Positions 519-61,633 of a stretch of DNA of 64,000 nt are shown here, in pieces. The notes beneath the pieces are model-generated. The model did no database searches. It had not been told where the DNA came from and worked only from the letters and a program-made list of their open reading frames with translations. The stretch covers positions 50,326 to 114,325 of the forward strand of contig BDIU01000314.1 of assembly GCA_002118135.1 (NCBI GenBank), in the 5' to 3' direction. Source of the DNA: Trebouxia sp. TZW2008 (lineage: Eukaryota > Chlorophyta > Trebouxiophyceae > Trebouxiales > Trebouxiaceae). Within the stretch, counting starts at the first letter, position 1. Each line of letters begins with the position of its first letter. The translations under genes and the position numbers were made by a program.

Positions 519-3230
519 GGAGGGGAGTCACTGGCCCTGAAGAGGCTGGAGGACCACATTAAAGACAAGGCGTGGGTGCTGCAGTTTGAGAAACCTAAAG
601 GCAACCCTGCAGCCCTTGAGCCAGCCACCACAGTGCTCAGCCCCTATCTCAAGTTTGGCTGCCTCTCTGTTCGAGTCTTCTATAAACGCCTACAAGAGGT
701 GAGCACCTGAATGCGTTGTCCATGCATGCTGTTTGTTTGTCTGGCTCTTCAAGAACATGTCTTCAAGAGGGGATCATCTTACTGCTCCCAGCCCTGTAGC
801 TCAACATCATTGTCCATGTATGTTGAAATTGTTGATTCCTCAAACTCAAGCCAGTCACCAAAGCGCTCAGCCCCTACCTCAGATTTGGCTGCCTCTCTGT
901 TTGTCTGAGGCTTCTACAAACGCCTTCAAGAGGTGGGTAGCACATGAACAAGTTCGCTCATCATGGCCCACAGTGCTCACCTTTGTTGTTTGTAGGATGC
1001 GTAAACTACAGACATGACAGTCCAGTGACAAAGCACAGTCAAGCCCATCATTGGGCTTATTTGCTTACAGATAGAAGCTGGCACAAATCAATACACAAAG
1101 CCGCCTGTGTCGCTGAGGGGTCAACTGCTTTGGCGCGAGTTCTTCTACTTTGTGGGTGCCAACACCCCCAACTTCGACCAGATGGAGGACAACCCTATCT
1201 GCAAACAAATACCCTGGGAGGCAAATGACGAAAAGGTTGCAGCATGGGAGGCTGGCAAAACTGGTTTTCCCTGGTGAGGTCCAATCACATGGCTTCTTGT
1301 ACAAGTAGCTAAACCATTACAGTTCAAGTTATCATGGCTATTGGTGCATGCCCGCCATGCTATCATGCTTCAGCAATGGAAAACTGAGCCCTGACTCTCC
1401 TATTTGTCCTACTGGCGTTACATCATACTTGCCGCTGACTTTTGGGTTGCTGCCTTGCAGGATTGATGCATGCATGAGGCAGCTTGCCACTCAGGGTTGG
1501 ATGCACCACCTAGCTCGCCACGCAGTAGCTTGCTTCCTCACCCGGGGAGATCTTTACTGCCCCTGGACAGCTGGCAGAGACGTCTTTGACCGATTACTCA
1601 TTGATGATGACTGGAGCCTCAACAATGCCAACTGGATGTGGCTATCAGCCAGCGCGTTTTTCTACCAGTACCACAGAGTGTACAGTCCCATCACTTTTGG
1701 CAAGAAGTATGACCCAGACGGAGCCTTTGTCAGGAAATTTGTGCCTGAACTCAAGGTACAACTTTGTCGTGTTCCACTCTTGAAGAAAATGCCCAGTCAA
1801 ATCCATTTGGTGTCCAAGTCCAATCTGATGCCTGAGTCGGTGTTGCCAGCTCTGACAGAAGCAAACGCATGCACTGAAATTCTTCTGACTGCATGTTTAG
1901 CTACTCAAGCCTATGCAGAGCATGAGCAGGTCTGGGAACTGTTGTCATTAGAAGTGCAAAGGTATGATGCAGTAGCATGTTTGACAAGAACGTGAATGGC
2001 AACACAGGGACATCGCGCCTGCTTGCTGAGGGAACATGGGCACAGCTGTAACTTAAGCATTAGCAGTCAGGTGCTTGTACTCTCTGCAGGACTTTCCAGC
2101 CAGGTGGATTTATGAACCCTGGAAGGCACCCATAGCCGACCAGAAGCAGGCCAATTGCAGGATAGGTGTTGACTACCCTAAACCCATGGTCGACCATGCT
2201 AGTGTCAGCAGCGCCAATGTGGAGAAGCTGAAGACTGCATATGCCCATCAGGACTCTCCAGACAACAAGATCAAGACCCCGCCACATGCCTCTGGGGGTA
2301 CCAGGGGGGGTGGGGGTGCGACCCCAAGCCACTGGCATGGGGGTCAGAGACCGCACCCTGTAGGTATGCTTGTCCCCACCTGCAGTATACGGCTTGTCAG
2401 CGACAAATCAGTGTCAGTATTCAGATGCATATGCAGCCTTACAGTACTTTGTGCGTCTTATGTGGGGTGAGCATGTTATCTTGATGACATGCGGATTAGG
2501 GTTTCTTGTGTCTTATTGCTGCGTGAGCATGGCACAGTATAGGCGCAAATATTGCTCATTCGAGCATTGTAACCATCAGGCCGACTGTATATGCTGGTGC
2601 TGCAAACACCAGTTTGCACCTCCTAAAGCAATCGTGCAGCTGACTGCATATTTTGACTCTGCAGAGGCTCACCAAAGCGCAAAGGCTACGGCAGACTCGC
2701 CCAGTCAGCCGCGCCAACCCGCTGGGTCTACAGATAAGGAGCCTAAGTCTGGTTTTGGTGATGTGACCATGCCAGCAAGCACAGATGAGTCACCTCAGCA
2801 GGGGGCAGGTAACAGCGGGGCAGGGCAGGACGATCATGGGGCTGTTGCACATGGTGCTCACGAGGACAGGGCTGAGCCTGAGGCCACACTGCCAGGTGGC
2901 ACAGCTACAGGGGGTTCTGGACCGGATTCCGGCACCAAGAAGAAGAGTGTTGGAAAAGGGAGAGCAGCGCCTAGCCCTGGAAGCAAGCAGCATGATGCCA
3001 CAGGGGGCTCTGCATCAAAGTCAGGCAAGAAGAGGAGCAGCAGCGATGACTTGCAGCCAGCATCGCCTGACAAGAAGCAGAAGAAGCTTGACTTCAGTGG
3101 TGCTGGTGCTCAGAAGCAACATGCTGAGAACAAGAGTCCTGCCAAGGGTCAACTGTCACCTGAGAAACCAACCAGGACCACGCCAAAAAGGCAGTGCAAG
3201 CTCAAGCTTACGCCTGTGCAGTCTGAATGA
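519..3230 (+). CDS. Animal-like cryptochrome / (6-4) photolyase, 5' part outside window
   Basis: Flavoprotein blue-light receptor or DNA photolyase. Exons are 519-698, 1071-1273, 1461-1755, 2090-2297, 2386-2466 and 2665-3230; all phases join and give 510 residues ending in TGA. The N-terminal antenna domain (roughly 200 residues) lies before the window. Visible family marks are [43 protein letters not shown] with both histidines of the (6-4) photolyase active site, and [10 protein letters not shown] with Asn at the FAD-N5 position, as in photolyases and algal aCRY rather than insect CRY. The last exon encodes a 188-residue Ser/Pro/Lys-rich tail with basic clusters ([14 protein letters not shown]) that may be nuclear signals; such tails are typical of cryptochromes. 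The 87-nt intron 2298-2385 is the least certain join. Light sensing and repair cannot be separated from sequence alone; both are known for algal aCRY. Confidence 0.9.
745..950 (+). repeat. Exon echo of cryptochrome exon 519-698 (3' edge plus donor)
   Basis: Positions 851-950 repeat the last 90 bases or so of the preceding exon and its donor, including 'gctcagcccctacctcag' and 'ggctgcctctctgtt', with small frame-breaking changes. A shorter, more decayed copy of the donor end lies at about 745-775. Both sit inside the intron, downstream of the working exon. Confidence 0.75.
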
Positions 3231-4026: not shown

Positions 4027-4040
4027 CTCAGCAGGATATC

Positions 4041-4474: not shown

Positions 4475-7400
4475 ATGTCGGACGAGGCTGTGGCTCTGAC
4501 GCCGTCCAATCTGCGAACTTTGTCCGTTCCTGCAACACCAGGCTCAGTCCCTGCTGCTCCGTTCAAAAGGCATGATCGTACTAAGTCGCACCCAGCAATT
4601 GACGAAGGCAGTACTGACAGCGGCAGCGAAGGCACAGAACCCCGCAACTTGTCTTCAGCGTTTGATGCAGTTGTCACAAAATCAGAGCCGACGCTGGAAA
4701 CAGCTGCCAGCGTCGTAAACCCAGTAGACTACCGCGACATCGTGGACCAGAACCAAGGCCACAGCCTGTCAGTGCCAGTCTCGCAGACGCCAGTCAAGCC
4801 TGACGCCCTCCCAAAAGCGACTGTCTCTGAGAGAGCAAACGCTTTGAAGAGCCCTAGTGTTCAGTCTGACACTCCCTCAGCAGATGACGCCCTCAAGGGC
4901 ATTGTAAAGCCAGTCTCAGGCACCCCAGTTGCAGCAGATCAAGCAGAGATCTGTCCACCCTCCCCACCTCAGTCACGGCCAGTCGAGAATGAAGCACTGT
5001 ATATGGATGCAGTGCCAGGAACCAAAGGCGCTTCACTCCCACATGATGAAGCAGAGCGCCTCAGGACTGTGGCTTTGCTTGGCATTCTAGACCAGCCAGA
5101 GGACCCTGTGCTAGCATCCATCACAAAACTTGTGACTCGCCTGCTTAAGGTGTCTACTGCAGGTCAGTACGCACAGTCACAACTGCCAGATATAGCGTCA
5201 CGCACGCTGCCGTCTGCATTTAAGCATGCTGCAATATTGACACTAGCTGCATGACCGCTTGCATGAGACTTTTCAGTTCGCCTGTGATTCTGCAACATCA
5301 ATGCCGCTTTGGTAACACCCAGAGACACCCCTGCCTTCCATTTGCATGCTGTGCAGCACCTAACTGGCAGCTGCAGATGCAAATCAGTGAACCCCTGCAG
5401 TACCTCCTGATTGCTTGCGCTTGGATCGCGTCACACCCACATCAGCGCAAGTGCTATGCACACTGATGCCTGCAAGCATCAACAGCACTGGCAGGGACAG
5501 CTTGTGATGGCCGTTACTGTGCACAATTGGCACTGCAAGTTGCATCCACTCACCACAGCACCTTTTGAACATTTGCCCTTCTGGTTTTGTCAGACTTGCA
5601 ACAGCACAATTGCCACAAAGTCTGTGTTGCTGGCAGGCATCAACATCATTGACAAGGATCGTCTCTGGTGGCCGTCACTGTGCACGACTGGTTTGCCAGC
5701 TCATGGCTGGACTCACCCTCGCCAGATTGGCTTTTGCTCCTATACGCTGCTATCAGAGGCAGCTGAAGTCCTGGTGGTTGAGGATGCCCAGAAGGATCAC
5801 AGGTGGGTGCTGGGCCCTTTCAGTGTCTGCATGACATTTCACTTGTATGATGCAATTTTCAGCTAGACCAAAAGGAAGTCATCTTGCAAGAGGGGTGTCT
5901 CACCCTGTTCTTTGGAGGGCATGTGAGGTGTCAACTTACTCAGCCCTTTGATGCTCTGCAAATTACTTGGCTGTCACCAGGTAGCAAGCAAAGGCGATGT
6001 GATCTCATCCAGCATATATGTGAGTGCACCAACACCTTCTGCTGCATTGGCAATAGAGTCTGCAAAGATTGCAGGCTGTTGTTTTTGTGGCAGGCTTTTG
6101 CTTCTGGTTGACGAGTGTTTCGTCACTGGAGTTGCGCAATGCACTGATTTGCAGCAGTTCCCCATGGCATATGAGCTGGAGCAACAGTCAGCCATTGTAG
6201 ATGCTGTGTTGATGACAGATTGCATTCTCAACGTCTTGGCTTGGATTAGGAAATCTGTGATGCCAAGCTTGCTGCTGTACCTGAAGATCAAGACGCCTCA
6301 ATTGCTATCTAGCCTTGCCAGCATCTGTCAGTGACTTTTGTTGTGTCATCTCAAGCAGGAGCTCAAGCTGTTCTGCATTCATGCAGATTCAAAGACAGCC
6401 CCTTTGTGACTGGCTTCCCCAACATCCGTTTCTATGGTGGAGCGCCTCTCATTGCTTCCAACGGCCACCGCATTGGCGCCTTGTAAGTTCTCTGCCACCC
6501 TTTGCCATGCCGTGCCTCATCAAACTGACTGTCACCTATTGTTCAGTCAAAACAGAGACAACCTGCAATGTCTTGCACATTGCATCAACATTAGAGCATG
6601 TGTGGCAGGTTGTTTTCCCACATACATACAAGTGTTCACTGACATGTGTGTCAGTGTCTTTTCAGAAACACCTCGTCAGTGAGAGATCTGTCACATACAA
6701 ACGTTGCTTTGGTCTCAAGTGGGTATTGGCTGCATTCAGGTGTGCCATCGACCAGCAGCCCAGATCCTTGTCATCACAGCAGTTGGCAGTTCTTGCACAC
6801 TTGGCAGAAATGGTGGTGCGCCGCATAGAGCGCGACAAACAGATCCTGCTGCAGCAGCACTCCAAGACTACGCTGCTGCGCACGCTTCGAAACCAACAGG
6901 AGGCTGTGTTGCTGTGTGACACTGCCATGAATGGCTGGCCCATCCTGTTCACCAACAAGTCCTGCTATGACATGTTGGGGTGGGATGAGGGGACACTGGG
7001 GGGTAGGGGGGTGTGGGATTGTTTCAAGATGGAGCCTGGCAGCAAGGTAGATGCCCCTGTTCCCGTTTACCCTGTTTGTATGGTAGCTGGCAGGGGAAAG
7101 GAATGACGTCAGGTGTCATGGTGGAGTGGCTGCTGTGTCAACATTTGTTCTTAGTCCCAATGCTTGACCAGCATTGCTGTCATTGTTCTGAGCCTCTAGT
7201 GAGGTGTCACCGTAGACCTCGGACTGCAGACAACGGAGGGAATGGGCTGTCGTCCAGTTGCTGCTGTGACTTGCAATGCTGACTATTGTCTCAAAACGGG
7301 CGTGACTTGATCTCACCATACGCGGTGGTCATTGTTGCAACAACTTGCCTCAGACAGCATTTCAGCAGCAATTCCTCTATGCAAGGGCCACAAGAGCTAC

Positions 7401-10400
7401 ACTGCGTGTGGGATGCTGCTTGACTGCTGTTTGAGTTGCAAGGTATTGCGTGCAAGTGCTCCATGCTGAACAGATTCCATCAAAGACTGTTCTAAGCCTG
7501 CGATGTACATGATGCAGATCATTCCACTGCTCTTGTTGTTGGCTTTTGGCAGTGATGCATGTTGAAACCTTGTTTCATGCAGTCATCATTGAAAGCCATT
7601 CCAGGTCAGAGTGTACAGGTCCTTGCCTTGAAACCCATGTCAACTAATTACAGACTGCCAATACACCAAGGCAAAGTGGTGATTGATGTAAGGACTGAGA
7701 TCTGTGGTCACCCTCAAACGGCCATCTTGAATTTCACAAGAATTTTGGTTACTCATGTCGGCATTCTCACTTCTGATGTTTCCAGCTGGCTGCCCCAATC
7801 TCAATGTCTAGCATGAAAAACAAATCTTCTTGGGTGTGCAGGAGTCGTCTGAGAAGGCTCTAGCACAGAGGACGCGCTTCACCATCAAAGCCTCATCCAC
7901 AAAGTTTCCCACGCATGCCCGCCAGCTTCAGCTAGAGTTCAGGTGGGCCTGCATATACAGCGCTTTCCATCACTGCTGATACACTCATCAAGCCTATTGC
8001 ATGACAACACAATGCTTGCATTGCAGACATTGTTATCACCTGACTGCAATTTGTGTCTGGGTCAGGAAGCTGTGTTGAGAACAAGTACAGTACATACTGG
8101 AGTTTCAATTGGATTGCGCCTGACAGTAGGCCCGTGCAGCTGCTACAGCAATGCCTCACATACAGGACGCAAGCACCTGGTCTGCAGAGGCCTTCATGAC
8201 GCACTGCTGGTCCAGATGGCTTACGTCCTGCATTTGAGCATTGATGAAACAGCTGCCACACCAGTTGTTGGGCACCTTTATGTCACAGGTCTGGCATCAA
8301 TGCCTGGCATCATGCTTGGGTCTCTTTATGCTCTCAGACCAAAATTTTGCATTTGTCTAAGGCACAGTTTGCCACGGATCCATTACCTGTGTCACAGCAG
8401 CACAAAGCAAAGCAAGGACCACATTATTTAGCATCATGAAGGGAGCTGTTGTGAGGAGAAGCAGCCCAGACCTGCGTTACAAGACAAAGCGTGTGTGTCA
8501 CTCTGCAGGCCTGCCAGTGCATCCAGAGCCGTTCATCACTCCCTGCAGATTGGCATCTTTGGCTTCATCAGTAACAAGGACAAATTGTTCCAGCTGTACT
8601 TTGTGACCAATGCGGTAGACCCATATCTCTAGATAAAGTGTGTGTGTGGCTCTCTGCAGGCCTGCCAACACACCCACAGCCATCCATCCTTCCCTGCAGA
8701 TTGGCATCCCCGCTTCCATCAGTGACCGGATGACCTGTTCCAGCTGTACTTTGTCACCATTGCTACAGACCGATCTCACAAGACAAAATGTGTGTGTCAC
8801 TTGCAGGCCTGCCAACACACCCACAGCCATCCACCCCTCCCTACAGATTGGCATCCCTGCTTTCATCGGTGACCGGGATGACCTGTTCCAGCTATACTTT
8901 GTGACCATTGCGCCAGTGCCCCAGATCCTTACTGCCCCAGGCAAACTGCAGGTAGCGCTGCTGCTGCATCGCGTGAAGTCCTGTTGCCTTCTGCACTGGT
9001 GTTTTGGTGTGTCTGCCTGTGTACACCGTGCTAAGGCCTAATAATTCCTGCGCTGCTGGCCATGCTGCTTCAGCACTTGACAGACTTAGCCTACGTCCTG
9101 ACATTCAGTCCTTGACATACAGCTGTGTTGTGCCAATGTTCAGCTGGCGGATGTCAGCCTGCACTCTGGTGAGGCCCAGATGTGCTGGGGGTCTGAACCA
9201 GACAGCTTCAGCCTCTGATACGTCCAACCTCATTCAATATACCTGTACAGGCTGAAATGCAACAGCACATAGCTGGTGTAAGCTTGCTGAATCCTAGTAG
9301 CAGCTAGACCTTGGCCAGCACTGTTCTAGGCTGTACTTTGAGCCTCGTTTCTGACAATCAGGCTCTCACATGCGCCAATGTTGTGCAGGCTGAAATGCGC
9401 CAACGGTCAGCTGGTGTGAGTGTGCTGAGGCCCAGTGATGCCTGGGCTAAGAATCAAACAGCTCCAGCCTACAACAGTTTCCCCAGTGACATCCGCCACA
9501 AGCGGACTCAGCAGAATCTGGTGAACATTAACTGCGAGCTGCCTAGCCTGCAGCAAAGCCAGTTTGAGGAGGTACAGCTGGGTATGCTGTTGGGAGGCAG
9601 CAGCTCTGGCAACGTGTACAGAGGCATGTGGAGAAGCATCCCTGTTGCTGTCAAGGTATGTTGCTCAAAGCCCAACATTGCACATGGCCTTGTCTTGTTG
9701 AGATGATGGTCTTTTTTGGTGGGTTGTAATTTGGTATGCTGTTAGGAGGCAGCAGCTCTGGCAATATGCACAGGGGCATGTGGAGAAACATTCCTGTTGC
9801 TGTCAAGGTATGCCATTTGAGGCTTGCACTTGCATGTGATGGTTTGTTGGTTGTGATGAGTTACAGCTGAACATGCTGCTTGGCACCAGTAGGTCTGGCA
9901 ACGTGTGCTGAGGCAAAGGGAGGGGGCAGTCCTGTTGCCATCAGGGCATGTTGCTGACGTCCTACCTATTCACACGGCCTGTTTTTGGGGTGATCGCCGG
10001 TTCTGATGGGTCTGCTGTGCATGCTGCTGGTAGGCAGCAGCTCTGGCAGCGTGTACAGCGGCATGTGAGAAACATTGATGTTGATGCAGAAGTCTGGTTG
10101 CACTGTACAAAGCTCTCTCATTTTTGCACGTGACTTGCTTTCTGAGGCATGCTGATGGCCAGCAATTCTGCTTGGCATGTGAAGCAATGACCCTGTCAAG
10201 ACTCTTGCTCGATAGAGCCAATGGTTGCGTTGCAGTCTGTTGCTTGCCCAGGTCTAGCATTCAGATTCCATGCAGAGGATGCATCTGCCGCAACTGAACT
10301 CAAACATCCAGTTGTGTGAGGGTTGCTTCTCTGCACTGGAAGCAGCACTGTTAGCCTGGCAAGTATAGAGCTGAATATGCTGAGTTTGAAGCTGAGTGGT

Positions 10401-13400
10401 TGTTGTCAGATCAAGGCATGTATGGAAAAGTGTCAACAACGCAGGAACAGACCTGACGACAGCTGTAGTTGCAGTCATCTGCTTGTGACAGCATGTGCAG
10501 CATCAGTCAGCCCCTTGATGCATTGCATGTATCCACTGCAACCATACATGCATACTCTGCCACGTAACGTTGCCCAAACATCTCAAAGGCAGATTTGCCT
10601 TGACAGCAAGTTTCAATTTGTGGGCGTGTCTGCACTGAAAGACTCAGCAGAGTAGTATAGCAGCAAGTGCAGTTACTGTGCAATGCTGGGGCTGCTGCAA
10701 TGCACAGATGACTCTGTATCCAGCTGTGTTTGTACAAGCTGTGCAATGGTGCCATGTCAAAGGTCAGGCGCTTGATGCTTTGGCTCAAGCCAGGTAATGC
10801 GACTGAGGTTTGGAATGTACCAATGAACAGCCAATACAGCACGGCTGGGTGGCAAGGTCTATGTGCTAGCCCATCAGAAGCAGCAAGGTCCTTGGTCGGC
10901 AGCGCTTATGTTTGCTGTTTGTCGTATGAAGTGTCCAGTGTAAGCTGTTGCTGCACTGCAAGGCATGTGACTGCTGATCTGCTGAAGTCACAGAAGTGCA
11001 CTGTGCATGCGGGTTGAGGCAGCTGAATTTGGCTGCCTTACAAGTCAATACCTGAGCTGTAAAATAATCATTCCAAGCTGCCCCACAGCTTCTGCACAAT
11101 AGCTGCTCTTTGAAAAGGTGTCATAGGCCCCGCATCAGGCAGGAATGGCTTCCATGCATCCTCTCGTTCCTACCTGAGTTACCCAGTGTTGTGACAATTC
11201 TTCGTCAAAACAGCAGCAACAGCACCATGGTCCTTGCTCACATATCTTTTTTTTTTTGGGGGTTACAGGGGAGATGTCCATTCCCAGTAGGCAAACAGCC
11301 AACCCAGACACCGGACGAACCTGGCATGTGCACAAACAGCGGCCTAGTCAACGAGCGGCTAACATATCATTTCTGCTGAATGACTGGAGTCATTGCTTTG
11401 ACGGTGACCTGCTTTGTTGTGTGCCTGCAATAAATCAAGGCAAGGCTAGTGGGCTGCATTGCAAGCGATGAGCAGGGTGGCTTAACACAAGAAATAAGCA
11501 GCGATTCGTGTCTCACAGATCCTACTTGCTGTTCCTGCACTGGCTTGACATATCTGCTATGCCTGTGTGCCTGCAGAAAACCCGGGCAAGGCTGGTAGAC
11601 TGTGTCCCAAGGGGTGAGAAGGACGCCCTCATCACACAAGAAGCAGCAGCAGCCATGGGTGTTTCTCATCCCCACCTGGTGACTACCTACAAGTACGCCA
11701 TCAAGTATCATGAGAAGGGACAGCCACATGAGAGACTTGAGATGCATGATGATGGCAAGCCTCTGCTGCCTGGCACTGCTGAGTGCTGGCTGTTCATGGA
11801 GCTGTGCAACAAGGGCACCCTGCAGGTTGGTTGCCATGACCAGCCCCAACTCTCATGCCTTGAACCTCTTCATCACTATGCCATTGAACATCATGAGAAG
11901 GGAACAACTGCATGAGAGATTGGGGATGCATGATGATGGCAAGCCGCTACTGCCTGGCACTGCTGAGTGCTGGCTGTTCATGGAGCTGTGCAAAAAGGGC
12001 ACTCTACACGTTGGTTGTTGCCGCGAGCCCCCTCAATTATTGTGATTTGAACCCAGTTCAGGTCGTTCAGTACCATGGGAAAGGCAAGGTGCATGAGAGA
12101 CTTGAGGTGCATGACGATGGCAAGCCGCTGCTGGCAGGCACTGCTGAGTGCTGGCTGTTCATGAAGCTGTGCAAAAAGGGCACGCTGCAGGTCAACTGTC
12201 GCTATGAGTGATTTGACTGCTCATGGTCCAAACTTGCTTGCTGGAGCAGACTGTGCCTTTGAGGAAAAGGCATCAAGTGCTAGGCCGTGATGCCTGATTT
12301 GCAACAATACACTGTAAGCTTGTCAGCAAGCCCCTAGCAGAATGTGCGGCTATTGATTGCAAGATGTTCGCCAATGCTGCAAGGCGCATGAAGGAGCAGC
12401 CTGACAAGGCATCCAGTTCAAACAGCCTGTGGTGCCAAGCACTGCAGTGTCTGATCCTGGTGCATGTTGCTCTTGACAAGCAGGCAGGCTTGATCAGAAC
12501 CCACATATGGCGTTCAAACCACTGACAACTGGCAGCTGAACTGCCCTTTTCTCAGCTCTTGCCTGTGTCCATGCAGCACTGGGTGGTTTCTGAGCTTTGA
12601 TGGCAAGCCCAAGCTAGCAGCTTTTCTCAACAGTGCCCATGAGGCAGCGTCAACTTGCTGCACATCACTGCTGACACTCCGCATTTTTGCCTATGCAGCA
12701 CGCTATGGACAACGGCTGGTTTCTGAGCCCCGATGGCAAGCCAAAGCTGGTAGCCATGCTGAGCAGCGCCCATGAGGCCAGCTTGGGAGTGGCTCAGCTG
12801 CACCGGGAGGATGTTATCCACGGCGGTCTGTGCCCTGCTGCCTGCTTCCTCAAGGCTGCCCGCAACCAGAGAGGCTTTGTAGTCAAGGTGCGTTCTTGCC
12901 CTTTGCATTGTTGTCCCATTGCAATCAACACAGAGGCTGTGCACTCCTGTTGGTTCCTGTTCTTGGGGTGTTGGTTCGCCTACTGATAACACGGGCTTTG
13001 TAGTCAAGGTGGTCTCTTGTCATGCTGCCTGCTTCCTCAAGGCTGCTTGCGACCAGAAAGGCTTTGTAGTCAAGGTGTGCTCCAGTCCTGTGCATCAACA
13101 GTCCCATTGTAAAGGAACATAGCGGTTGTGCAGTCCCAGAGGGTAGCTTTCCTAGGTTGTACTCAAGGTGGCCACTTGCCCTGCCACCTGCTTCCTCAAG
13201 GCTGCCCCCAACCAGAGAGGCTTCGTAGGCAAGGTAGGACTCTGCCTTGTCCTTTCCAGGTATTTCTACGTTTGTCCCTGTAGTCAGACCACCTCTGTTT
13301 GGACATTTCTGCTGTCTGAGGCTGTGTAGTCATGCTGGGTACCCGTCCTGTGGCTGCAACTACCAAGAGGGGCTTTGCAGTTGCACTGGGCACCTGCCCT

Positions 13401-24623: not shown

Positions 24624-24660
<37 letters not shown>

Positions 24661-31311: not shown

Positions 31312-32008
31312 TACCTATTATATATATATCGCTAATGTAGAAACGTGGGTTGTAATGAGTAACGTCACTGTGTGGAAAAGCTGCTCTAGAGAAGGCTCCA
31401 CATCATTGTTCAGATAGAAATGCTACCAACGCTCCTGCGCTTGAAAGAGCATGTGTTTGTGATGTAGTACATTGGGTGGTGCTGGTATAAAAGTACTTGG
31501 TAAATCTACACGCATGTACCTCTTTACAGACTAATGATCTCATGACAGGATGATTTGTACAATATACCTGTCTCAACTAAATCAAAGTTGTTAATTCAGT
31601 GTAAACTCAGTGACGTGTATCGCCATCGCCAGCATCTCAGTCAAACACATCAAGTAATGATTTTCAGAACTTTTGGAAAATGAACATCTCTACTTGGTGT
31701 TATGTCAATCTGTTGTTTTCTATGATCGGCTGTTCATTGTTTAGGATCACACCAATATATCCCCCAGTCCGCAACAAATTCTCGCTAAATACTCAATGCA
31801 GTTTTACAGTACCTGTCACATGCCATATCTGTTACATACTCACCAGCTTTCAACTTGGCTGAATGCCGTGACATCAGCCTACACAACTTCCAGGAATTGG
31901 ACGGATTTGCAACACCAGCTTATCCTTGGGCTGCAAGGTAACCCTTATAACTTGCTCCTCCCTGAGTAAATCCTCACAATTGACTCCAAACGGCTAAAGG
32001 TCATGGCA
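31312..32008. other. Convergent 3' spacer, AT-rich
   Basis: AT-rich sequence, including TATATATAT at 31319, lies between the beta-barrel-like gene and the P450 stop. TTACA near 31832 (TGTAA on the minus strand) could polyadenylate the P450 transcript. Its right end holds a decayed copy of the P450 last exon. Confidence 0.6.
31893..31996 (-). repeat. Exon echo of the P450 terminal exon
   Basis: 'caccagcttatccttgggct' and 'gcaaggtaacccttataact' repeat the C-terminal coding end at about 32050-32130. The copy lies downstream of the P450 stop on the minus strand. Confidence 0.85.
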
Positions 32009-47191: not shown

Positions 47192-49867
47192 ATGACAGAC
47201 GCAAGCATCTTTGGATCACAACTTGCAAGCCCACCAACTGACGGCATTTCTGGACTTCGCTTTTCTGCGGCCAATGACTTGCTGCTAGCCTGCTCGTGGG
47301 ACGGGGTAAGTGCTAAGCCTCGATTGTCCCTGACATTTTATGTATGATCAGTTTCTGAAACAATTCAGCATGGGCATTCGCAGTTGGCCAGGCTCTATGA
47401 CGCCCGACACGACACCCTGCGTGGCAGCTACTCTCACCAGGGACCTGTTCTAGATGCCTGCTTCCAAGATCACTCCACCATATTCACTGCTGGTCTTGAC
47501 AGCTTTGTAAAGAGGTACAGTGAACAACACAGAGTCAACCAAATGCTGGTACAACATGACATTGTATCCGTCAACCTAGGCTCGTTTTGCAGGTATGACT
47601 TCTTTGGTCATGCAGAGACTGTCATAGGGCAGCACAGCCAGCCAGTTAGATGCGTTGAGTGGTTGAGAGAGCAGGGAATAGTAGCTACTGGAAGCTGGGA
47701 CAATACATTGCGTCTATGGGATCCAAGGATGCCTCTTGGCAAGAACTGTGTTTCATTAATCCCCCTGCCGGGCAAAGTATTCTCAATGGCACAATCTGGC
47801 AGCCGGATGGTGGTGGGAACATCAGGCAGACATGTCTTGGTGTTTGACCTTCGCAGGTATTTCTGGTCTCATGCAAACAGCATGTTATGCTCCACATCAC
47901 AAGCAGAACATGCAAGCACCCAAACTGCCCTGTAAAGGTCACGCCTGGCAAGTCACAAGTGACATGAGCTGCTGACATGATCAGATCAGCTTGTGCTTTG
48001 GCGAGTTGTTTGGACCTGCAGGCTTGCCGCCTGAGCGGAGTACTGCTGCTGCTACTGCTGCTGCTGCTGCCTGCACAGAACCATGATGTGATAAAAGCAT
48101 CTGCAGTGCTGCTATGCCTTTGCATCTGCTTGTTGCTGTCAGCATTGACACAGCACTGTTGGCAGCACTGGCTCATTTGTCTGGCCCACGTCATGTCTCT
48201 CAACTGTGTCTAGTTTCCAGCAAATTAGTCATACCTTCTGTCATTTTTGCAGCATCAAGGGCGGGCAGACAGCCAGAGCAAGTCAGGTACTCTTCTCTGG
48301 AGTATCAGACACGTTGCATACGCTGCTATCCCAATGGCACAGTGTCTTCAGCTGGCCACTGGCTCATCTGTCTGCCGCTCGTTCGCCTCTGTTGTGAATT
48401 ACTGTTGCCAGCAACTTATTTGTCCTGTGTGCTCATTGCAGCATCAAGCGGGGGCAGTCAGAGCAAGTCAGGAACTCTTCTATAGAGTGCCAGATGCGTG
48501 GCGTACGCTGCTAGCCCAACGGCAAAGGCTATGCTCTCAGCTCATTCAACATCGTTGGCAGCTCTTGTATGCTCATGTCTTTTGTGATGCTTGCAGTATC
48601 AAGGGTGGGCAGCCAGAGCAAGTCAGGGGCTCTTCTCTGAAGTATCAGACTCAGTGCATACGCTGCTATGCCAATGGCACAGGCTATGCCCTTAGTTCCA
48701 TCGATGGTGTCAGCGGCTCTTGTATGCTCACGTCCCTTGTGATGTCTGCAGTATCAAGAGTGGGCAGCCAGAGCAAGTCAAGGACTCTTCTCTGAAGCAT
48801 CAGACATGTTGCATACGCTGCTATCCCAACAGCACCGGCTACGCTGTCACCCACATCAACAGTGCTGGCAGCCCAAGTCTTCTGTGATGCTTGCAGTATC
48901 AAGATTGGGCAGCCAGAGCAAGTCAGGGACTCTTCTCTCAAGTACCAGACGCGGTGCATACGCTGCTATCCCACTGGCACAGGCCAACCTCTCACCCACA
49001 TCAAAACTGCCAGTAGCTCAAGTCTGTTGTGGTATCTGCAGCATCAAGAGCGGGCAGCCAGAACAAGTCAGAGACTCTTCTCTGAAGTATCAGACGCGTT
49101 GTATACGCTGCTATCCCAATGGCACAGGCTATGCCCTTAGTTCCATCGAGGGCAGGGTTGCCATGGAATACTTCGATATCAGTGAACAGGCTCAAGCAAA
49201 GAAGTATGCCTTCAAATGTCACAGGAAGAGCGAGGCTGGCAGGGATGTTGTGTACCCTGTCAATGCCATTGCCTTCCATCCTGTCTTTGGTACCTTTGCA
49301 ACTGGAGGTAAGCTTTGCTTTGACACTGAGCATGCTCATAAGTGCTGCTGGGAGCGCCACCTTTCCAGGCTTTGACTTGACCAGCAGTGACGATTGCTTG
49401 GTGGGCACACTGTCATGCTGCAACAGCCATGTCAATGTGAACATATCGTGCCAAATCAGCAGGTCAATGACACACATGTATGCAGCACTGGCTATATGGC
49501 CATGCATGAACTGTATGTGGCTCTGGGCTTCAATCATTCAATCAGCAAGCAGATGTCTGTTGTCTTGAGAATCCATAAAGTGATTGCATACAGACAACGT
49601 CAATCTGAGATGTTTGTAATGTGATACACATACACTGCAGGCTGTGATGGGGTTGTGAACATCTGGGACGGCGAGCACAAGAAAAGGCTGTTTCAGATTA
49701 GCAAATACCCCACAAGCATAGCAGCCATGGCCTTCAATGCAGATGGCAGCTTGCTTGCAGTAGCGTCCAGCTATACTCATGAACAGGGTGACATTGAACA
49801 TCCACCTGACATGGTGTATCTGAGAAGGATAAATGAATCAGAAGTGAAACCCAAGCCTCGCAGATGA
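47192..49867 (+). CDS. BUB3: Mitotic checkpoint WD40 protein BUB3
   Basis: Seven-bladed WD40 protein of 333 residues (human BUB3 has 328). BUB3 docks BUB1/BUBR1-type proteins on phosphorylated MELT motifs at kinetochores. Exons are 47192-47305, 47384-47514, 47593-47856, 49042-49307 and 49641-49867; phases agree and it ends in TGA. Diagnostic segments are [116 protein letters not shown] and the C-terminal [20 protein letters not shown]. The start gives the usual BUB3 length. The 1.2-kb intron before exon 4 is filled by five decayed copies of the start of that exon. Confidence 0.95.
48253..49041 (+). repeat. Five exon echoes of BUB3 exon 4 (acceptor side)
   Basis: Copies of the first 110-130 bases of exon 49042-49307 start at 48253, 48440, 48597, 48752 and 48897, each immediately after a TGCAG or TTGCAG acceptor. 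Spacing falls from 187 to 145 bp towards the working exon. Copy 1 has a 4-bp insertion and copy 2 a stop. Copies 3 (48597), 4 (48752) and 5 (48897) keep the frame through [17 protein letters not shown] sequence. The sixth, last copy is the functional exon. Confidence 0.95.
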
Positions 49868-52769: not shown

Positions 52770-53045
52770 GCTGTAGCCATGCGCGGTCTGACTGTGTAGA
52801 CTACTCTATGAGCATGCTGCAGTGCGTGCACTTGTCCTCGAGAATGCTTGTTTGACTTGTGAGTGTTCCGACTCTGCAGCATTGCAACGGGATTATGACC
52901 TGGCAGTTTCGTGCATGCTTGAAACTTTAGTATTCCCAGAAAGAAGAAATACTTTACGTTCGTCTTGTCGAGGCAGGTGCACATGCAACATGTTCAAGCT
53001 ACCTCAGCAGCGGATCAAGCCCGCGCCTCGATCTCAATGCTTGTA
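52770..53045. promoter_or_regulatory. Divergent promoter spacer, F-box / RabGAP
   Basis: About 276 bp separate the F-box start from the proposed RabGAP start. It is less CpG-rich than the other divergent spacers; CG density rises just downstream, around 53130-53290. No named element is visible. Confidence 0.4.
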
Positions 53046-56000
53046 ATGACCGCTGCCAAAAGCTCAATGACCATTGTACAAGGTTACGTGGGATGTTCGG
53101 ACCCTGTTTGTTGTATTTGTTGTTGTGTCTAACATGACCACGGAATTGGTGTCGAGTTCGCCGCACAGCTTTTGCACAGGTACAAGTTCTGCCGTTGTAT
53201 TGGAGATCCTCTCGTAGACCACTCTCGTGAAGTGTACCGACATCGTCCATCATGCAGGTTGCGCAGCAGATTGTGGAACGGTGTTGACAGCCTTTCGGTC
53301 AAGCAACAAACGCGGCAAGGTAATGACCTGCACCTCAGACCTTCTTAGCTGCGCGTGCAAGGCTGATTAAGCCATTCTGCAAACTACTGACGAACGTGCT
53401 GTTTTCAGGGGCCCGTACTAAGAACAGAGGAAGGCCAGGAAGGCGCTGTGCTTTGCAACGACGACGAGAGTCTGTTCGCAGCTAGCAGGGAGAACAGCTT
53501 GAATGGTTGTGATCTCGTGAAGCAAAGTTCGTTCGAGTCAGTGCATTGCAAGTAAGTGGAGTGTCAAGTTCACAGCAAACGGCTCAAACTCTGTCTCTGG
53601 GTCTTTGATCGTGCTATGCCAATGACACCCCGCTGCAAAATGCACCTCATGCCAATTTAACCATGCCATGGGTTTTCAAGTCATGTCAGCCAGCTTTTTC
53701 CTGCAGCATGGACGATTATGAGGTCTGCAGCAATGGAGGTGCAGAAACTCCAGTGCAAACAGCTCAGAACCCTAGCACGAACTCATGTGATGATGTCATG
53801 TCTAGTCCTGATGCACCTGAGAATCAGCAGACGCCTGCTGATTGCCAAGTAACCACAAGCAGACATGAGGATGCCTATGGCAGTGATGATGATCACTTTT
53901 CAGATGTGGGAGATGCACCTGACACAGAGGTTGCCATTTTGATCTCCGCCATAGGGAAACACGAAGTTCTTCATGTTGTGTGTGCATGTATGTCTTCATG
54001 TTGCAATGCTTTGCGTCAACATCCAGTTTTGAGATGTGGCCCCATTTGTGTTAACAACTTTGCTGCTGGTAATGATCATACGTGCACATGTGACTTGTTG
54101 ATCTGATGAGCAAGCAGTCGCTGGTGCAAGCATTGTTTCTGCTCATCTATGAACACCTGCACTATTGCCATGGAAAGTCAGCAGCATTGCTCATCAATTT
54201 GGCATGCCAACTGCCCTGGCATATTGTGCAGGTTGTGTATGTCAGAGAAGGTGTTGCAGTATGGCCCACAAAAAACCAGCGCATTATGGGCCGGCTGAGT
54301 CTCATTAAGCAGCATCAAGTCATGTTCTTGGCATGGCTGCCTTACAGTCAAGGCTCCCTGAATAGGGACGGCACGTTCCAATCGGCTGCAACTGCTCAGA
54401 AATCTGCAACCCAATCTGCCAAAGGTGCTTTGAAGCAGGACATTGGCCTGTGTCCATAGTCAGGCGCAGGCAGATTTACTATATCTGCACTTTTTTGCTC
54501 TTGTGCACAATGGCCAGTAAAGTTGTGTGCAAATGATGTGAGGGACGTCCTGCAGGCACAATTGCACTGCATTGCTGCACCAAATGGGCGTCAAGCCAGC
54601 ATATAGCCTATTCCGAATTGCCCCCTTCGCTCTCAAGGGTGCGTTGCTCAATGACAGAATCTCAGTGCCTCATTGTCTCTGCCCATATTGACATGTCAGG
54701 GCATAGTGCCTTGCACTTGCGACACCCAGAACAAGCTGGCCTTGATCTCAGGCTTGGTTCACACAAACCAAGCACTTGTGCCGAGAATACAACATAAATC
54801 AAGGTAACATTATCACCACATCTGACTCCTGACACTGATGATGTGTACGCAGATTGAAACATGTCTGCTGTGCTCCAATCACTGGGAGTGCTGATGTGCG
54901 GCTGATGCTGCAAATTGACCCATGTATGCTGCGCTGTGGTCGCTGAGATTGCTGAGATTGCTGACATGTGGCTGTTGTTGCAGATCGAACCATGTATGCT
55001 GTGCATCCAATTCCACTCTCTGAGGTGAAGGCTGTCAGGAAGCACATCCCCTCCTTTGGCTGGCAGTACATTGTGCTGGTGCTGGTGAATGGCCTCACAC
55101 TGCCGCCTCTGTACTTTGGCACTGGTGGCGTCAAAGCCCTCTTCTCTGCTCTCAAACAGGTGTGGAATAGTCATCTTACATCAGCCAATGCTGCGTCATC
55201 AGAAGCTGGTGGTCAGTCATTCATTGTCTTACATTGCCAGCAGCACAGCAGTGCTGTCCTCTGTTGTAGCGGCATGCATCTGCCCTTCTGCACCTACTTG
55301 CTGAAATGCATGCTTTGCTTCAGAGAAATTGATCGGCTACACATACTCGTTGTTGACAGCGCCATTGAGAAGGTTTTAAGAATGTGCTAAACTATGCGCG
55401 TTATTCAGCAACAATGATCTGAACTATATGTCTATTGTCTTCAGAACACCTCAGTCCACTATGACTATGCTTTGGGCAGGTAACAAAGCAAGGCACGCAC
55501 ATTGTGCCATTCATTCAGCTTTCATAGGATAATGGAATCAATTGTGCTTTTGAGCTTGTGACATCAAGCCTCTGGTTGAAGCAGCCTGGTTGTGATGCAG
55601 CATGTGCCTTTGGTGAAGAGCTCAGATGACGCCAACACCTACCTGGTGAATGACACCGCTGACCCCTTGCAACGCAGCCTAACCTCTCTGGAGCTGACGG
55701 ATGTGCTGATGGGAGCCCCACCCCCAGGGGCTTCCACCACCTGGCCCCCTCCCACAGGTGTCAGCAACCCCTTTCTTGTTTAGGTTCTGACTTCACTGAA
55801 TCAAGTGCGTCAATCTGCAGCTTGACGCATCACACCATGGATCATGCTACATTGTTTGCTCACTTTATCCCTTTTGCTTGCATGCTTGCTTGCTTGCTTG
55901 CTTGCTTGCTCGCTTGCACGCTTGCTTGTAGCACTTCTGCATTGTGATCGTACTGCTCAGCTCAAGCCTGCAACAGCTCCATCATGTCTGCATGGTGCCA

Positions 56001-59000
56001 AAAGCATGCCTTTGAGCTTTGCTTTGTGTAGTGCTGGCATGCCCCAGAAGGGAGACACTTGCCTTCGACATGTCGCTCGGTGCAGCAGCTCTTTGCCAAA
56101 TTTAACTTGGGCCCCATCTGCCTTTTGGGATAGTGTCTGCAAGGCACAAGTCTGTGTCACAGCTTTTGCTTCGGTGGTGCTGTATTCGGCTTGTTTGTAA
56201 CGTCTCCATCATCCTGCTGATAAAGTCTTTTGCTATGGTGTCCACCCTCAGACCCAATTTCACACAGTCATACAGAGTTGATGGAGCTATTGCCAAGCAA
56301 TTTTCTGCTTCCACACATCCCTTTTTCCCCTTGAAATTCTGTGCCTATCAGGCTGGCAGGACAACCTGCCAGCGATGTTCCCTGTGCTGTGTTGGCACAA
56401 AATTGGACACAAGTGTGCAACAGGGTTGATGATGCAGGTGGGGCTGTTTTGGGCTGAATGGGATCTGCGGTCAAGTTCATCAGCCTCGCATGGTGGCAGG
56501 GCAACTCCAGGGTGGGTGGTCCATGTGAAGCTCTCTGCGCTGTGTCACACCACAGCAACAAGGAACACCTTAAAATCAAGACTGTGCACAAAGCACTGCT
56601 GGCAAAAGTTTGAGTTTCTAAACCAGCAAGTGCCACACTTTGCGCCTGATGGCATGCAGGTGGGGCTTGGGTGGGCCCAGAAGTGGGTAGCACAGCAGGG
56701 TGGCAGGATGCCCCAGAGGGCAGGGCACCCCTGGTAGCCTCTGTGCTGGAGCAGTTTGGCAGGATGACTGCCCTGGCTAAAGAGACCACCTCCAACCTGC
56801 TCACCAGTACGGCCTACTGGGGCGCCCAGCCAGGTCCGTCATCAGAGCATGTGGGTGTATCTGCAGCCATGCTGTGAGGGGAATTGCTCTGCTTTCATGC
56901 GTAAAGAATGCTTCGTTGGCAATCTTGCTTGCAGGTGCTGATTGACAATGTAATGCATGCTGTGTCATGGAGCTAGCTTTTCTTCAGTCAAGCCCATGCA
57001 TGTCAGACAACAAATTATGCTGTCACTGCAGACGAAGAGACACTGGATGCTGCTGCATCCTACCCCCCTAGAACCCCCCAGGGGTTGCCAGAGGGCCCCC
57101 CACCCCTGTTCATGGCCAGACAGGCTGCACAGGGGCTGGTTCTGGAGCACGGCATGCAGCATGAGAGGCAGCTTAGCGGCGAGGTCACCTCCACAAGCGT
57201 TGGTGTCTTTGAGCTTCTCGACAAGTCGGTAAGATATGCTCCACAGCCTATCCAAACACTGTGCTATTCTCAGAGTCATGTCTGCTGGACAGCTGAAAAT
57301 GTAGTAGTGCTTCAGTGAATGAGCACGCATATGCTGAACACCCGCTTGTGCATACATAGGTTGCTATTGTATGTCAGTATGACCTCGCTTGAAACATCTT
57401 GTTCTTCCAACAGCACAATCAATGATGCACACAAGCAACTGTCTGGTGCGCAAGCTGACAAGCGCAGCCAACATAGGTGTGGTGTCGTTAGTACAATTGC
57501 TTTGGGCATCCTGTGGGCTCACCTGCCCATGCCAGCGGAAGGTTGTCAAGGTCCTCAGCCCTGCGCTGCATTTCTGCTCTGCTGATGGTTTATGTAGCTG
57601 AGCTTCAGACTCGGTGAGGGCGCTGGTGTGTGTGTGCAGGGTGCCAAGCTGAGTTTCGTCACAGGGATGAACAGGCAGTCCAAAGTCAGCATGTTGCTTG
57701 GTCTATGCAGGGTCCTATGCTGAGGGTGCTCTCACTGGCAGTCAACGTGATGTGTTGTTTGTGCAGGGTGCAAAGCTGCCAGTGGATCGGCGGCCCAGCT
57801 CTCCAGCCCTGCCGGTCTACCAGGAGGAGTTTGAGTCCTTCTTCAATGCTGAAGGTATGCTGACTTCTTCCAATGTAGCAGCTTTGGCAAGAGTCTTTTT
57901 ATGGCAGAAGCACAAGTCTTGCACATAAGATGGAGAGATTTTTTTACTGATGAACCTTTTGTAATGCATTGCTGTCAAGCATTGCTGCAAAGCTGGTAGT
58001 GCTTGCCTTCCCCACAAAGTGTTTGCATGCCAGCCAGGCATCAACAAGCAGATACGCGTCAACTTAGCATACTGTCCGCCTCTTGGCATGAAAAATGACT
58101 TCCTCACATCCCAAACTTGTGAAGTGCGCTTCCTGCATTTGATGCACCAGGAGCGGCTGTCTTTTGTGTGCAATCTACCTCATCGCTTGCGCAAGCAGCA
58201 ACACTCATGGACAATAACTTGCTTGCAGGTCGCCTGGCAGGCTGGAAGAAATTCAAGGAGCGTGTGTTTTCCAGCCGCATACAGCCAAGCCTCAGACAGA
58301 ACGCATGGAAGTTCCTGCTGGGCTTCTATCCCAATCACAGCACTTGCTTGGCACGCATGCATTGAGCATCATTTCTTGCACAAGCAGCATCGCAAATATG
58401 CATTGCCATGGCTGCAGGTCGTCTAGTAGGCTGGAAGAAGTTCAAGGAGCGTGTGTTCACCAGCGGCATTGAGCCAAGCATCAGACAGAAGGCTTGGAAA
58501 TTTCTGCTGGGCTTCTATCGCTATGACAGTACCCAGATGGAGAGAAGGGCTTTGCGCAAAACCAAGAAGGCTGAGTACGAGCGCATGAAGTCCCAATGGA
58601 GGACAATGAACGAAGAGCAAACCAGCAGGTGGGCTTTGATGACACAAATTGTCATTGCAGTGATGCATGCTGCTTTTTGCATGCTCAGACAATGGAGAAT
58701 GCAGCAGAAAGCAGGGCTTTGCGCAAGGCCAAATCAGCTGAGTGAAAGCCCGCAAAGCCTCAGTAGAGGACGATAAACAAAGAACAGACCAGCAGATGAG
58801 AGAGAGAGAGAGAGAGAGTGTTGTTGCTTGGCAGCAATGCATGCCATGTTTGGCATGCTTCTCAGCGGCGGACGCAATACAATGCCACAACATGTTGCAC
58901 ACTGCTCCCCATGTAGCTCAATGTGATGAAGCAGCAGGAAGGCGGTGACAAAAAAATCATATCAGCTGCTTAGCTTCATTTCAGGTCCCAGCAGGATTGA

Positions 59001-61633
59001 GGGCCTTCAGCTGTCAGCTACCCTGTTATCAATGCACATTTCTGCATCGGTAGCAGCAATCAGAGGAGCAGTTGTCTGCAGCAAAGCATAGAGATGCATG
59101 GTCATATCACGCCAGCACAGTGCCATTCACTTTGTTTTGCTTGCTGCTGATATATGGAGCTGTTGGCCTGACAGGCTGATTTCAAGTTTGTTGAGTCACC
59201 TTTTTGCATCTTGGCCTTGAGCAAAGCAGCCTGCAATGTGCATGAACATGGCAACATCCAGTGCTTTCATGTCACAGCTTTGCAGGGTCATGCAGCTGAT
59301 CAGAACCTTTTTGCCATTCATGAAGGCTTTCGTTGACTCCCCCCTGGTTCTTTCTGTGTTTTCTTGGGCACTAGAAGTAAAGTTACATGGGTTGAGTTAA
59401 GATAGACTTTTTCCGTTTGTCTTTCCATGTTGTCTTGCTAATTCTGAGTTCAAACAATATACACCTGCTGCAGAAATGCAAAGTGGCGGGAACGACGCAG
59501 CAGAGTTGATAAGGACGTGCGCCGCACAGACAGGCAGCAGCCCTTCTACAGCGAGGCCCGCAGCCACAGCATCTCCCAGCTGCGTAACATCCTGCTCACC
59601 TATGTACAGTATAACAACGATCTCGGCTACTGTCAGGTGAGCGCCCCAGATAAGATGTGGCAGGTTGTCATAAAATGGCAAGTACCATGATGATTATGGT
59701 TGCTGCAGATTTGGCTCCTGCTGCGCAACATCCTGCTCACCTATGTACAGTGTAACGATGATCTTGGCTTCTGTCAGGTCAGTCTGTGGAGCTGCTCAGT
59801 GACAATTGTCTCTATGCAAGCAGAGTATTGTCTCAGCTGCGCATTATCCTGCTCACCTATGTACAGTATAACAATGATCTTGGCTGCTGTACTGGCTGGC
59901 GTGTGCCATCTTGTGAAGACATGACCCGTGATATGATGAGTTTGGCTGCTGTCAGGTCAAATTTGCTCTGCCTTTGCGGTCGCTTGCTAGAGACAATTTA
60001 TAGTGTTTTGTGTGCATTGCATGGATTTGCCTTTTTAATCTGTTCTCATGGTCATTTCCTGGGTGTTGAAATTATCTAGCCTCGGCACCAATCATTTTCA
60101 GTGTCCTGGCAGCAAGGAGCTGCACACTGCATCTGGTCTGTCAGTTGGCCTTTCAGCAAAAGACTGTTGTGTGTCTCCAGGCTTTGCATGGCTAAAAGCA
60201 GTTGCTTTGACCTGTCTCATGCATTGCCTAAACATGTTGCAGCTTGAGAGTGATACAAACACAAGTGTGCTGCAGGGCATGTCTGATCTGGCGTCACCAA
60301 TTTTGTACATTATCCGTGATGAAGCCAAGGCCTTTTGGTGCTTCACAGCCCTCATGCGCCGCCTTGAAGGCAACTTCGAGCAAGACAGCATGTAAGTCCT
60401 CCTGGCTAATGAATTAGCGCTGATTTGCAATGAGCACTGCTGCCGGGTCGCATCAGGAAGGCTTGAGCAGGAGACCATTTGAGGGACGCCTTCTGATCAA
60501 ACAGCACAGCTGCTGGTTTTGAAAAACCTTGTGTAACTGTTGAACTGACTGTGGACAGTGCATATTGGACACCCCTCTCATGTTGCATTGTATCTGTCAC
60601 TTGAGCACGCTGCGCCTCAAAATCACGTGGAGACTTGTATTGTGGTGCGATCTATGTTCTGATGATGCAGGGCCATGCACAGCCAGCTGCTGGCATTGAG
60701 GAAGCTGGTGCAGCTGCTAGACCCCCCAATGCACGCTTTCATGGAAGCCAAGTCCTGCCTCAATTACTTCTTTTGCTATCGCTGGCTGCTCATACACTTC
60801 AAGCGCGAGTTTGCCTTTGATGAGGTGAGCCTCAGGCAGCACTAAGGCTTGACACACCTCTTGCAACGAATTGAATGCCTTCATGAAAGCCAAGTCCCGC
60901 CTCCATTGATGCTTCTGCTATCGCTGGCTGCTCATACACTTCAAGCGTGAGTTTGGGTTTGATGAGGTGAGCTGTAAGCAGCGTTTAGGCACAACACAGA
61001 TTGCCTTTGACTCTCGTGATAGAATGCATTTCATGGATGCTGAGCACTACAGCTTTTGCTATCGCTGGCTGCTGATACAAGTTCAAGCCAAAGTTTGCCT
61101 TGGATGAGGTGAGCTGCAGGCAGTATCTGGTGACGACATGCTTTGCACACTGGACTGACTGTATGCTGAGCATGCATGCAATTGTGACAAGTGACCAGCC
61201 TGCATAAACTGCATTCTATCGCTTGCTTGGAGGTTGGCTTGCGCTTGCAATCTGCTGCTCAGAGTCAGTGTGCTTGGTTGACTTGGTTCTGCACTCAGTG
61301 CACTGACTGGAACAAGCAACAATAGAAGGCTCATAGGGTGAATCTTCTTGATAGCAACTGCTTCTGCTGCAGGTGCTGCGGTTTTGGGAGGCTCTCTGGT
61401 CCAATCCCCATCACGAGCATTTCCACCTGTTTGTTTGCGTGGCTGTTCTGGAGCATCACAGACGAGCCATCATGAACAGCTGTGAAGATTTTGACACCCT
61501 CCTTAAGTTCTGTGTTGATCTCAGTGGCCGAATTCCTATGGCCTCAGTTCTACAAGATGCTGATGCTTTGTGTAGATGGGCAGGTGATGCTGGTCGAGAT
61601 TGTGTGGCAGAGCTTAGTCTAGGCCAGTCCTAA
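53046..61633 (+). CDS. TBC1D15/GYP7-like Rab GTPase-activating protein
   Basis: RabGAP of about 791 residues. Exons are 53046-53082 and 53258-53319 (both tentative), 53409-53551, 53707-53929, 54232-54424, 54984-55159, 55601-55757, 56660-56854, 57032-57228, 57767-57854, 58418-58628, 59474-59636, 60276-60391, 60671-60824 and 61373-61633; phases agree and it ends in TAA. The N-terminal region matches TBC1D15-type proteins (EGVAVWPTKNQRIMGRLSLI, FGWQYIVLVLVNGLTLPPLY, DDANTYLVNDTADPLQRSL). The TBC domain has SGIEPSIRQKAWKFLLGFY, the Arg-finger motif VDKDVRRTDR and the Gln-finger YCQGMSDLASPIL, so it should be catalytically active. CLNYFFCYRWLLIHFKREF and VLRFWEALWSN follow. It probably acts on Rab7-type GTPases, as relatives do. 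Most introns contain exon echoes. The GTTGCC donor after 53929 is atypical. Confidence 0.88.
54850..54983 (+). repeat. Two exon echoes of RabGAP exon 54984-55159 (acceptor side)
   Basis: 'cagattgaaacatgtctgct' near 54851 and 'caaattgacccatgtatgct' near 54910 repeat the acceptor and start 'cagatcgaaccatgtatgct' of the working exon. They are separated by copies of the preceding intron (CTGATGTGCGGCTG, CTGACATGTGGCTG). Confidence 0.75.
55872..55932. repeat. GCTT tetranucleotide microsatellite
   Basis: About a dozen GCTT units with a few CGCT/CACG variants lie in a RabGAP intron. Confidence 0.9.
56430..56525 (+). repeat. Exon echo of RabGAP exon 56660-56854 (acceptor side)
   Basis: 'gatgcaggtggggctgtttt' and later 'tggtggcagggcaactccag' echo the acceptor and start of the working exon ('catgcaggtggggcttgggt', GGGTGGCAGGATGCCCCAG). 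The copy is diverged. Confidence 0.55.
57635..57690 (+). repeat. Exon echo of RabGAP exon 57767-57854 (acceptor side)
   Basis: 'gtgtgcagggtgccaagctg' repeats 'ttgtgcagggtgcaaagctg' at the working acceptor; the match fades after about 25 bases. Confidence 0.6.
58228..58345 (+). repeat. Exon echo of RabGAP TBC exon 58418-58628 (acceptor side)
   Basis: After a TTGCAG acceptor this copy reads GRLAGWKKFKERVFSS and then RQNAWKFLLGFYPN, close to the working exon 58418-58628 (GRLVGWKKFKERVFTS). It then reaches a stop and has no donor. It is the best preserved amino-acid-level echo in the gene. Confidence 0.9.
58680..58800 (+). repeat. Exon echo of RabGAP TBC exon 58418-58628 (donor side)
   Basis: 'agggctttgcgcaaggccaa' and 'gaacagaccagcag' repeat the second half of the preceding exon ('agggctttgcgcaaaaccaa', 'gagcaaaccagcag'). 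The frame is broken and the donor GT is lost. A GA run follows. Confidence 0.8.
59720..59962 (+). repeat. Three exon echoes of RabGAP exon 59474-59636 (donor side)
   Basis: Copies near 59722-59779, 59836-59894 and a short one near 59940-59960 repeat 'aacatcctgctcacctatgt' and 'gatcttggcttctgtcag|gt'. The first keeps the donor. All lie downstream of the working exon. Confidence 0.88.
60880..61112 (+). repeat. Two exon echoes of RabGAP exon 60671-60824 (donor side)
   Basis: Copies at about 60880-60966 and 61030-61109 repeat 'tgctatcgctggctgctcat' through GATGAG|GTGAGC. The first has an in-frame stop (CATTGA); the second has lost and gained bases. Both keep a usable GTGAGC donor. Confidence 0.9.

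Follow-up and report, generated by a model that had tools for sequence, protein, structure and literature searches.

The 64-kb stretch of DNA analyzed here in full (the window) comes from Trebouxia, a green alga that lives in lichens, and carries a cryptochrome/photolyase-type gene, a GAF-kinase gene whose protein, trimmed by hand, gives Pfam matches to GAF and protein kinase, a P450 gene, a putative BUB3 gene, and a RabGAP gene. Assembled from its exons, the RabGAP protein shares 84% identity with a protein of Trebouxia sp. C0006 (99% covered) and 77% with one of C0010 (73% covered). Beside exons in this window lie partial copies of the exon edge, which we term echoes (Table 1). A sequence-only reading had listed 22 positions as such copies. 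Each was aligned to its named exon edge and compared with 300 shuffles of dinucleotide blocks, and the echoes were borne out at 22 of 22 positions, each scoring above 300 of 300 shuffles. Two passed narrowly: position 56430 scored 31 against a shuffled maximum of 29 over 21 columns, and position 57635 scored 37 against 28 over 27 columns; a common acceptor motif could carry much of both scores. Self-blastn of the window at a threshold of 1e-4 returned 45 pairs less than 4 kb apart and none further.

Table 1. Exon-edge echoes in the 64-kb window, in window coordinates.
Feature	Position	Strand	Basis and remarks
Working exon of cryptochrome/photolyase-type gene, 3′ edge echoed	519..698	+	Gene finder; FAD_binding_7 in first 245 residues of predicted protein
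Donor-side echo of exon 519-698	849..948	+	Matches 619-711, 83%
Acceptor-side echo of exon 5637-5802 (GAF-kinase gene)	5464..5530	+	75%; missed by self-blastn at 1e-4
Acceptor-side echo of exon 8807-8951	8483..8614	+	Self-blastn, shuffle test; within three-copy array 8479-8916
Acceptor-side echo of exon 9389-9655	9129..9214	+	70%; missed by self-blastn at 1e-4
Donor-side echo of exon 9389-9655	9733..9812	+	91%; more copies up to 10086
Acceptor-side echo of exon 11577-11825	11409..11517	+	70%; missed by self-blastn at 1e-4
Two donor-side echoes of exon 11577-11825	11877..12192	+	Second copy is gene finder exon 12071-12190
Acceptor-side echo of exon 12699-12887	12581..12648	+	80%
Donor-side echoes of exon 12699-12887	13005..13235	+	One is gene finder exon 13168-13259
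Donor-side echoes of exon 14595-14705, nested array	14776..15033	+	Self-blastn, shuffle test
Acceptor-side echoes of exon 15815-15973	15536..15746	+	Self-blastn, shuffle test
Weak donor-side echo of exon 16933-17100	17170..17249	+	73%; missed by self-blastn at 1e-4
Echo of last P450 exon (32009-32286), just beyond gene end	31857..31988	-	Self-blastn 78%; P450 Pfam match
Donor-side echo of P450 exon 33597-33678	33407..33437	-	87% over 31 columns
Array of about five acceptor-side echoes preceding exon 49042-49307 of putative BUB3	48248..48984	+	Self-blastn, gene finder, shuffle test
Acceptor-side echoes of RabGAP exon 54984-55159	54852..54934	+	Self-blastn, shuffle test
Weak acceptor-side echo of RabGAP exon 56660-56833	56427..56445	+	21 columns, barely above shuffles
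Weak acceptor-side echo of RabGAP exon 57767-57854	57626..57651	+	27 columns
Acceptor-side echo of RabGAP exon 58418-58628	58224..58343	+	85%
Donor-side echo of RabGAP exon 58418-58628	58707..58798	+	73%; two in-frame stops
Two donor-side echoes of RabGAP exon 59474-59636	59717..59890	+	88%; one is gene finder exon 59709-59777
Two donor-side echoes of RabGAP exon 60671-60824	60877..61123	+	88-89% in parts compared

Several other repeats lie in the window. An 84-bp tandem array (202-507) sits just before the cryptochrome exon, with no exon sequence recognized inside it. The P450 intron holds, at 32820-33340, an 85-bp tandem array of six copies with 91% matches, which may have originated from the exon edge at 33597. 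Tandem repeats at 20247-20579, 23134-23356, and 29785-30411 fall in long low-complexity open frames and are in-exon repeats of repetitive predicted proteins, and a TTA microsatellite of 46 units occupies 24595-24733.

The sample comprised the window and 20 tiles of 10 kb, together 264 kb in 21 records, from a source genome of 68.5 Mb in 527 contigs. The tiles lie on other contigs, all with a P450 search match, and their round coordinates were chosen by hand, not drawn at random. The DNA has a GC content near 50% and contains no N; the part of the Trebouxia A48 genome description available to us gives 69.1 Mb and 49.68% GC for that assembly (PMC12712428). Genes were modeled from sequence alone by a purpose-written gene finder that learned from this same DNA, starting from the splice sites of the hand-read RabGAP exons; an earlier version merged genes across strands and was dropped. 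It predicted 43 genes with 384 exons and 341 introns (median intron 351 bp), leaving 144.5 kb of predicted intron and 40.1 kb of intergenic DNA. Eight of the 13 hand-read RabGAP exons were recovered exactly; among its errors, some echoes were called exons and the BUB3-like and RabGAP genes were fused.

Local direct repeats abound in this sample. We obtained 292 near direct-repeat HSPs, against 25 near inverted ones, 7 direct ones beyond 3 kb in the same record, and 0 in one shuffled copy of the 264 kb. The copies show the direct orientation and closeness expected of short tandem duplication. Assigned by best pair, they form 124 local duplication loci: 52 at exon edges, 24 in which both copies overlap predicted exons, 29 noncoding (26 in predicted introns and 3 outside), 11 inside exons, and 8 other. 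When the annotation was slid 1000 times, 29.8 ± 4.5 loci fell at exon edges (maximum 45). The proposal that the pattern spreads past the window also held, with an edge locus in 20 of the 21 records and in 24 of the 43 predicted genes, among which the tile genes include PP2C, E1-E2 ATPase, glycosyltransferase, and ankyrin proteins by Pfam. Periods cluster at 125 to 199 bp (59/124), with 89 at 50 to 199 bp, 105 at 50 to 249 bp, and 7 at 400 bp or more. Detectable local repeat copies cover 23,236 of 144,499 predicted intron bases (about 16%), and 105 of the 341 introns contain 25 bp or more of such sequence. In the PP2C gene at L012 5252-6144, several copies of one exon were joined into the protein by the gene finder. 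Two further tiles (L021 4341-8254 and L024 4954-7624) contain copies 1.0 to 2.7 kb apart that span several predicted exons and resemble larger internal duplications more closely than they do junction echoes.

Echoes follow a fixed side rule. Copies of an exon's 3′ edge with its donor lie after the working exon, and copies of an acceptor with an exon's 5′ edge lie before it. The sequence-only reading saw no exception in the window, and we found none either: all 47 scored loci that reach a single edge, 26 at acceptors and 21 at donors, comply. This count covers neither the 5 whole-exon loci nor the 24 in which predicted exons overlap both copies. Tandem duplication imposes this rule by its geometry: once the end of an exon and the start of its intron are doubled, the message stays unchanged only through splicing at the outer copy. 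Random placement nearby would be expected to break the rule about half the time, so the result argues against copies dropped at random in the vicinity. Intron sequence was duplicated along with the exon edge. For 47 of the 52 edge loci, whole-exon ones included (5 were too short or not mappable), we compared the intron between edge and echo with the sequence lying past the echo, using 30 base shuffles per locus as control; z exceeded 2 in 38 of 47 and 4 in 25 of 47, with a median of 4.4. The duplicated unit therefore holds both exon and intron sequence. Although this spacer homology suits a head-to-tail join, contiguous copies are rare among the more similar pairs. The spacer is 15 bp or less in 54 of 124 best pairs, and 7 of 29 pairs with at least 85% identity are contiguous; for the edge class the figure is 1 of 11, compared with 56 of 133 in the most permissive simulation.

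One of the two copies has decayed freely. Across 47 edge loci, exon and echo differ at 148 of 1121 first, 120 of 1121 second, and 260 of 1119 third codon positions (13.2%, 10.7%, and 23.2%). A neutral echo compared with a constrained exon that itself changes mostly at third positions yields a ratio of about 1:1:2, and the observed pattern fits one constrained copy and one free. Two coding copies, as in exon duplication, should give far fewer differences at positions 1 and 2. The exon part was more alike than the intron part in 44 of 47 loci, a comparison we rejected as proof of constraint on the echo, since exon similarity was taken from within the HSP and intron similarity mostly from beyond it. 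Inner splice sites are weaker as well. In the edge class, median donor scores were 2.65 for inner and 6.2 for working sites, and median acceptor scores were 3.25 and 6.9.

We assign a probability of roughly 0.8 to the reading that the echoes arose by tandem duplication across splice junctions, with the outer copy maintained by selection and the inner copy left as dead intron. It starts from duplications that are local and direct, cross junctions, obey the side rule, and carry constraint on one copy only. Many short tandem duplications, with a unit mostly of about 75 to 225 bp, would have arisen in the gene-rich nuclear DNA of this Trebouxia species, most likely when neighboring nicks or breaks were repaired by fill-in synthesis, as reported in plants. 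Where a unit crossed an exon–intron junction, the old message would be obtained only by splicing at the outer copy, which selection would then keep; the inner copy, its sites presumably disregarded by the spliceosome, would turn intronic and decay unconstrained. Duplications wholly within introns would have no conserved exon for comparison and would fade from view faster, and those within exons would mostly be purged by selection. Introns would thereby gain length from defunct exon edges, whose splice sites are dead or weakened and which lie without exception on the intron side of the working exon. The sequence-only reading had proposed tandem duplication across a junction, with the outer copy still attached to the exon and the inner ones ignored by selection, and the intron homology, the side rule, and the codon-position pattern all uphold it. 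The rarity of contiguous pairs of at least 85% identity counts against it, as do an excess of junction loci that persists after simulation and the survival of splice motifs at inner sites, detailed below.

That excess raises the alternative that duplications are aimed at splice junctions or kept longer there, through nicks or R-loops at exon edges, exon-phased nucleosomes, or use of the inner copy. The slid-annotation comparison favors it, and so does a benchmark in which random duplication and decay were simulated in six settings and detected by the same search: edge loci make up 52 of 81 edge and noncoding loci (64%) and 43 to 54% of simulated ones (one-sided p from 0.00009 to 0.04 in the five settings tested). 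Junction positions within the unit are also not quite uniform (KS p 0.036, n 46), which detection limits could explain. Best pairs of at least 85% identity, however, divide into 11 edge and 11 noncoding loci, as simulated random placement gives, and the excess lies in the older pairs below 85% (41 versus 18), where the conserved exon copy aids detection; the contrast in edge share between young and old pairs is not significant (Fisher p 0.12). We read the distribution as random placement with uneven decay, with a possible residual junction bias, and regard it as unlikely that junctions promote or selectively retain duplications and that a junction-centered burst largely sets intron length in the lineage. 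We consider it distinctly less probable that inner copies are in use, as alternative or mutually exclusive exons or as decoy splice sites with a role. Forty-six of 49 inner sites aligned (3 did not) and 30 of 49 keep GT or AG, which does not differ from the 76% expected under neutrality (p 0.12). Scores match or exceed that of the working site at 10 of 49, so some could be in use, and at 24 of 124 loci each of the two copies overlaps predicted exons. Such use is countered by the codon-position ratio and the lower median scores of inner sites, and the seven RabGAP echoes, which sit inside introns, contain four in-frame stops. By eye, the sister species' RabGAP protein shows no such inserts, including the one that would match the echoes at 59717-59890. 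Transposable elements or Introner-like insertions carrying splice sites are highly improbable as the source. Echoes do bear splice motifs, and matches between records (190 HSPs at 1e-4, with each direction counted) show that the sample has some dispersed repeats or gene families, but each echo resembles its adjoining exon, 7 direct HSPs in the same record lie beyond 3 kb, and at 1e-10 the matches between records number 22 and span 46 to 180 columns. We set both sources aside on the locality of the copies within the 264-kb sample. A short dispersed repeat (46-112 bp, 87-94%) does occur in four records, at L012 2851-2962, L015 7744-7880, L010 1249-1342, and L016 890-948.

Whether duplication across junctions is continuous was addressed through the identity of the copies. 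It had been proposed that intron growth would be a continuous engine, and this was not supported as stated, because copies of at least 95% identity are missing among the 124 best pairs (0/124; highest 93.9%), whereas constant-rate simulations place 104 of 905 and 73 of 550 detected pairs, 11 to 13%, at or above that level. A single HSP of 292 reaches at least 94%, an exact 25-bp match. We put at somewhat below even odds the reading that most duplications date from one period that has since ended; under other scoring two 46-bp pairs exceed 95%, and near-identical tandem copies may have been collapsed in assembly. The missing pairs would be accounted for by a wave that has ended or by such collapse. 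The sample has no N, but no dispersed repeat of at least 95% over 200 bp was seen between records of the 264 kb either, so collapse stands beside an ended wave as an explanation. A relative date comes from the seven RabGAP echoes compared with the sister protein: in 11 codons exon and echo agree against the sister, in 2 the echo agrees with the sister, in 28 the echo has changed, and in 9 all three differ. The 11 versus 2 pattern (p 0.02, with echoes of one exon not independent) makes the duplications of this one gene look younger than the split from C0006.

The individual components of this pattern have precedents. Vaughn and Bennetzen (2014) and Schiml et al. (2016) reportedly described short tandem duplications in plants via patch repair of adjacent nicks or breaks. 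Gao and Lynch (2009) reportedly treated within-gene duplications that take in both exon and intron, a trait that the Trebouxia loci would share. According to the portion of a rice study available to us, tandem duplications are the commonest source of insertions there, are enriched at 50 to 200 bp, and are attributed to patch repair (PMC7971508). The Trebouxia copies are likewise direct and local, and 89 of 124 periods fall in this size range. In the same portion, however, the rice duplications are variants between varieties, unlike the decayed copies seen here, and between 125 and 200 bp the proportion that are tandem declines from 70% to 5%, so that Trebouxia sizes peak just where the rice share drops, a further point against our preferred explanation (PMC7971508). 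A tandem duplication whose unit spans an intron–exon boundary is in print for a potato gene, as far as the accessible section of a review relates (PMC3443670); a new intron arose there, whereas in Trebouxia the message is kept, the existing intron lengthens, and no new intron is inferred. Introners, in the part of the source at hand, are copies of one element at many genes (PMC9860276). They too add intron sequence in many genes, but echoes are recognized by likeness to their own exon, and across the 264 kb sampled, few matches at a distance or between records point to a similar element at many unrelated sites.

In titles and abstract openings of literature on tandem duplication with green-alga introns or Trebouxia, we found no description of the echo pattern among the matches listed, and titles and abstract openings on intron growth by tandem duplication and on boundary-spanning partial exon copies yielded none either, in coverage that leaves most subscription papers outside. 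The components are thus known; their density, as measured in a 264-kb sample of one genome, and their regularity look like a new variation on these. Annotation pipelines will probably mistake dead copies in such genomes for exons, as our gene finder did at several places in the window. Working and decayed splice sites of similar sequence share one intron, which makes each such intron a natural experiment on splice-site choice. An edge locus also carries its own clock, with the dead copy standing next to the original still in use, and would give dated intron growth without transposons.
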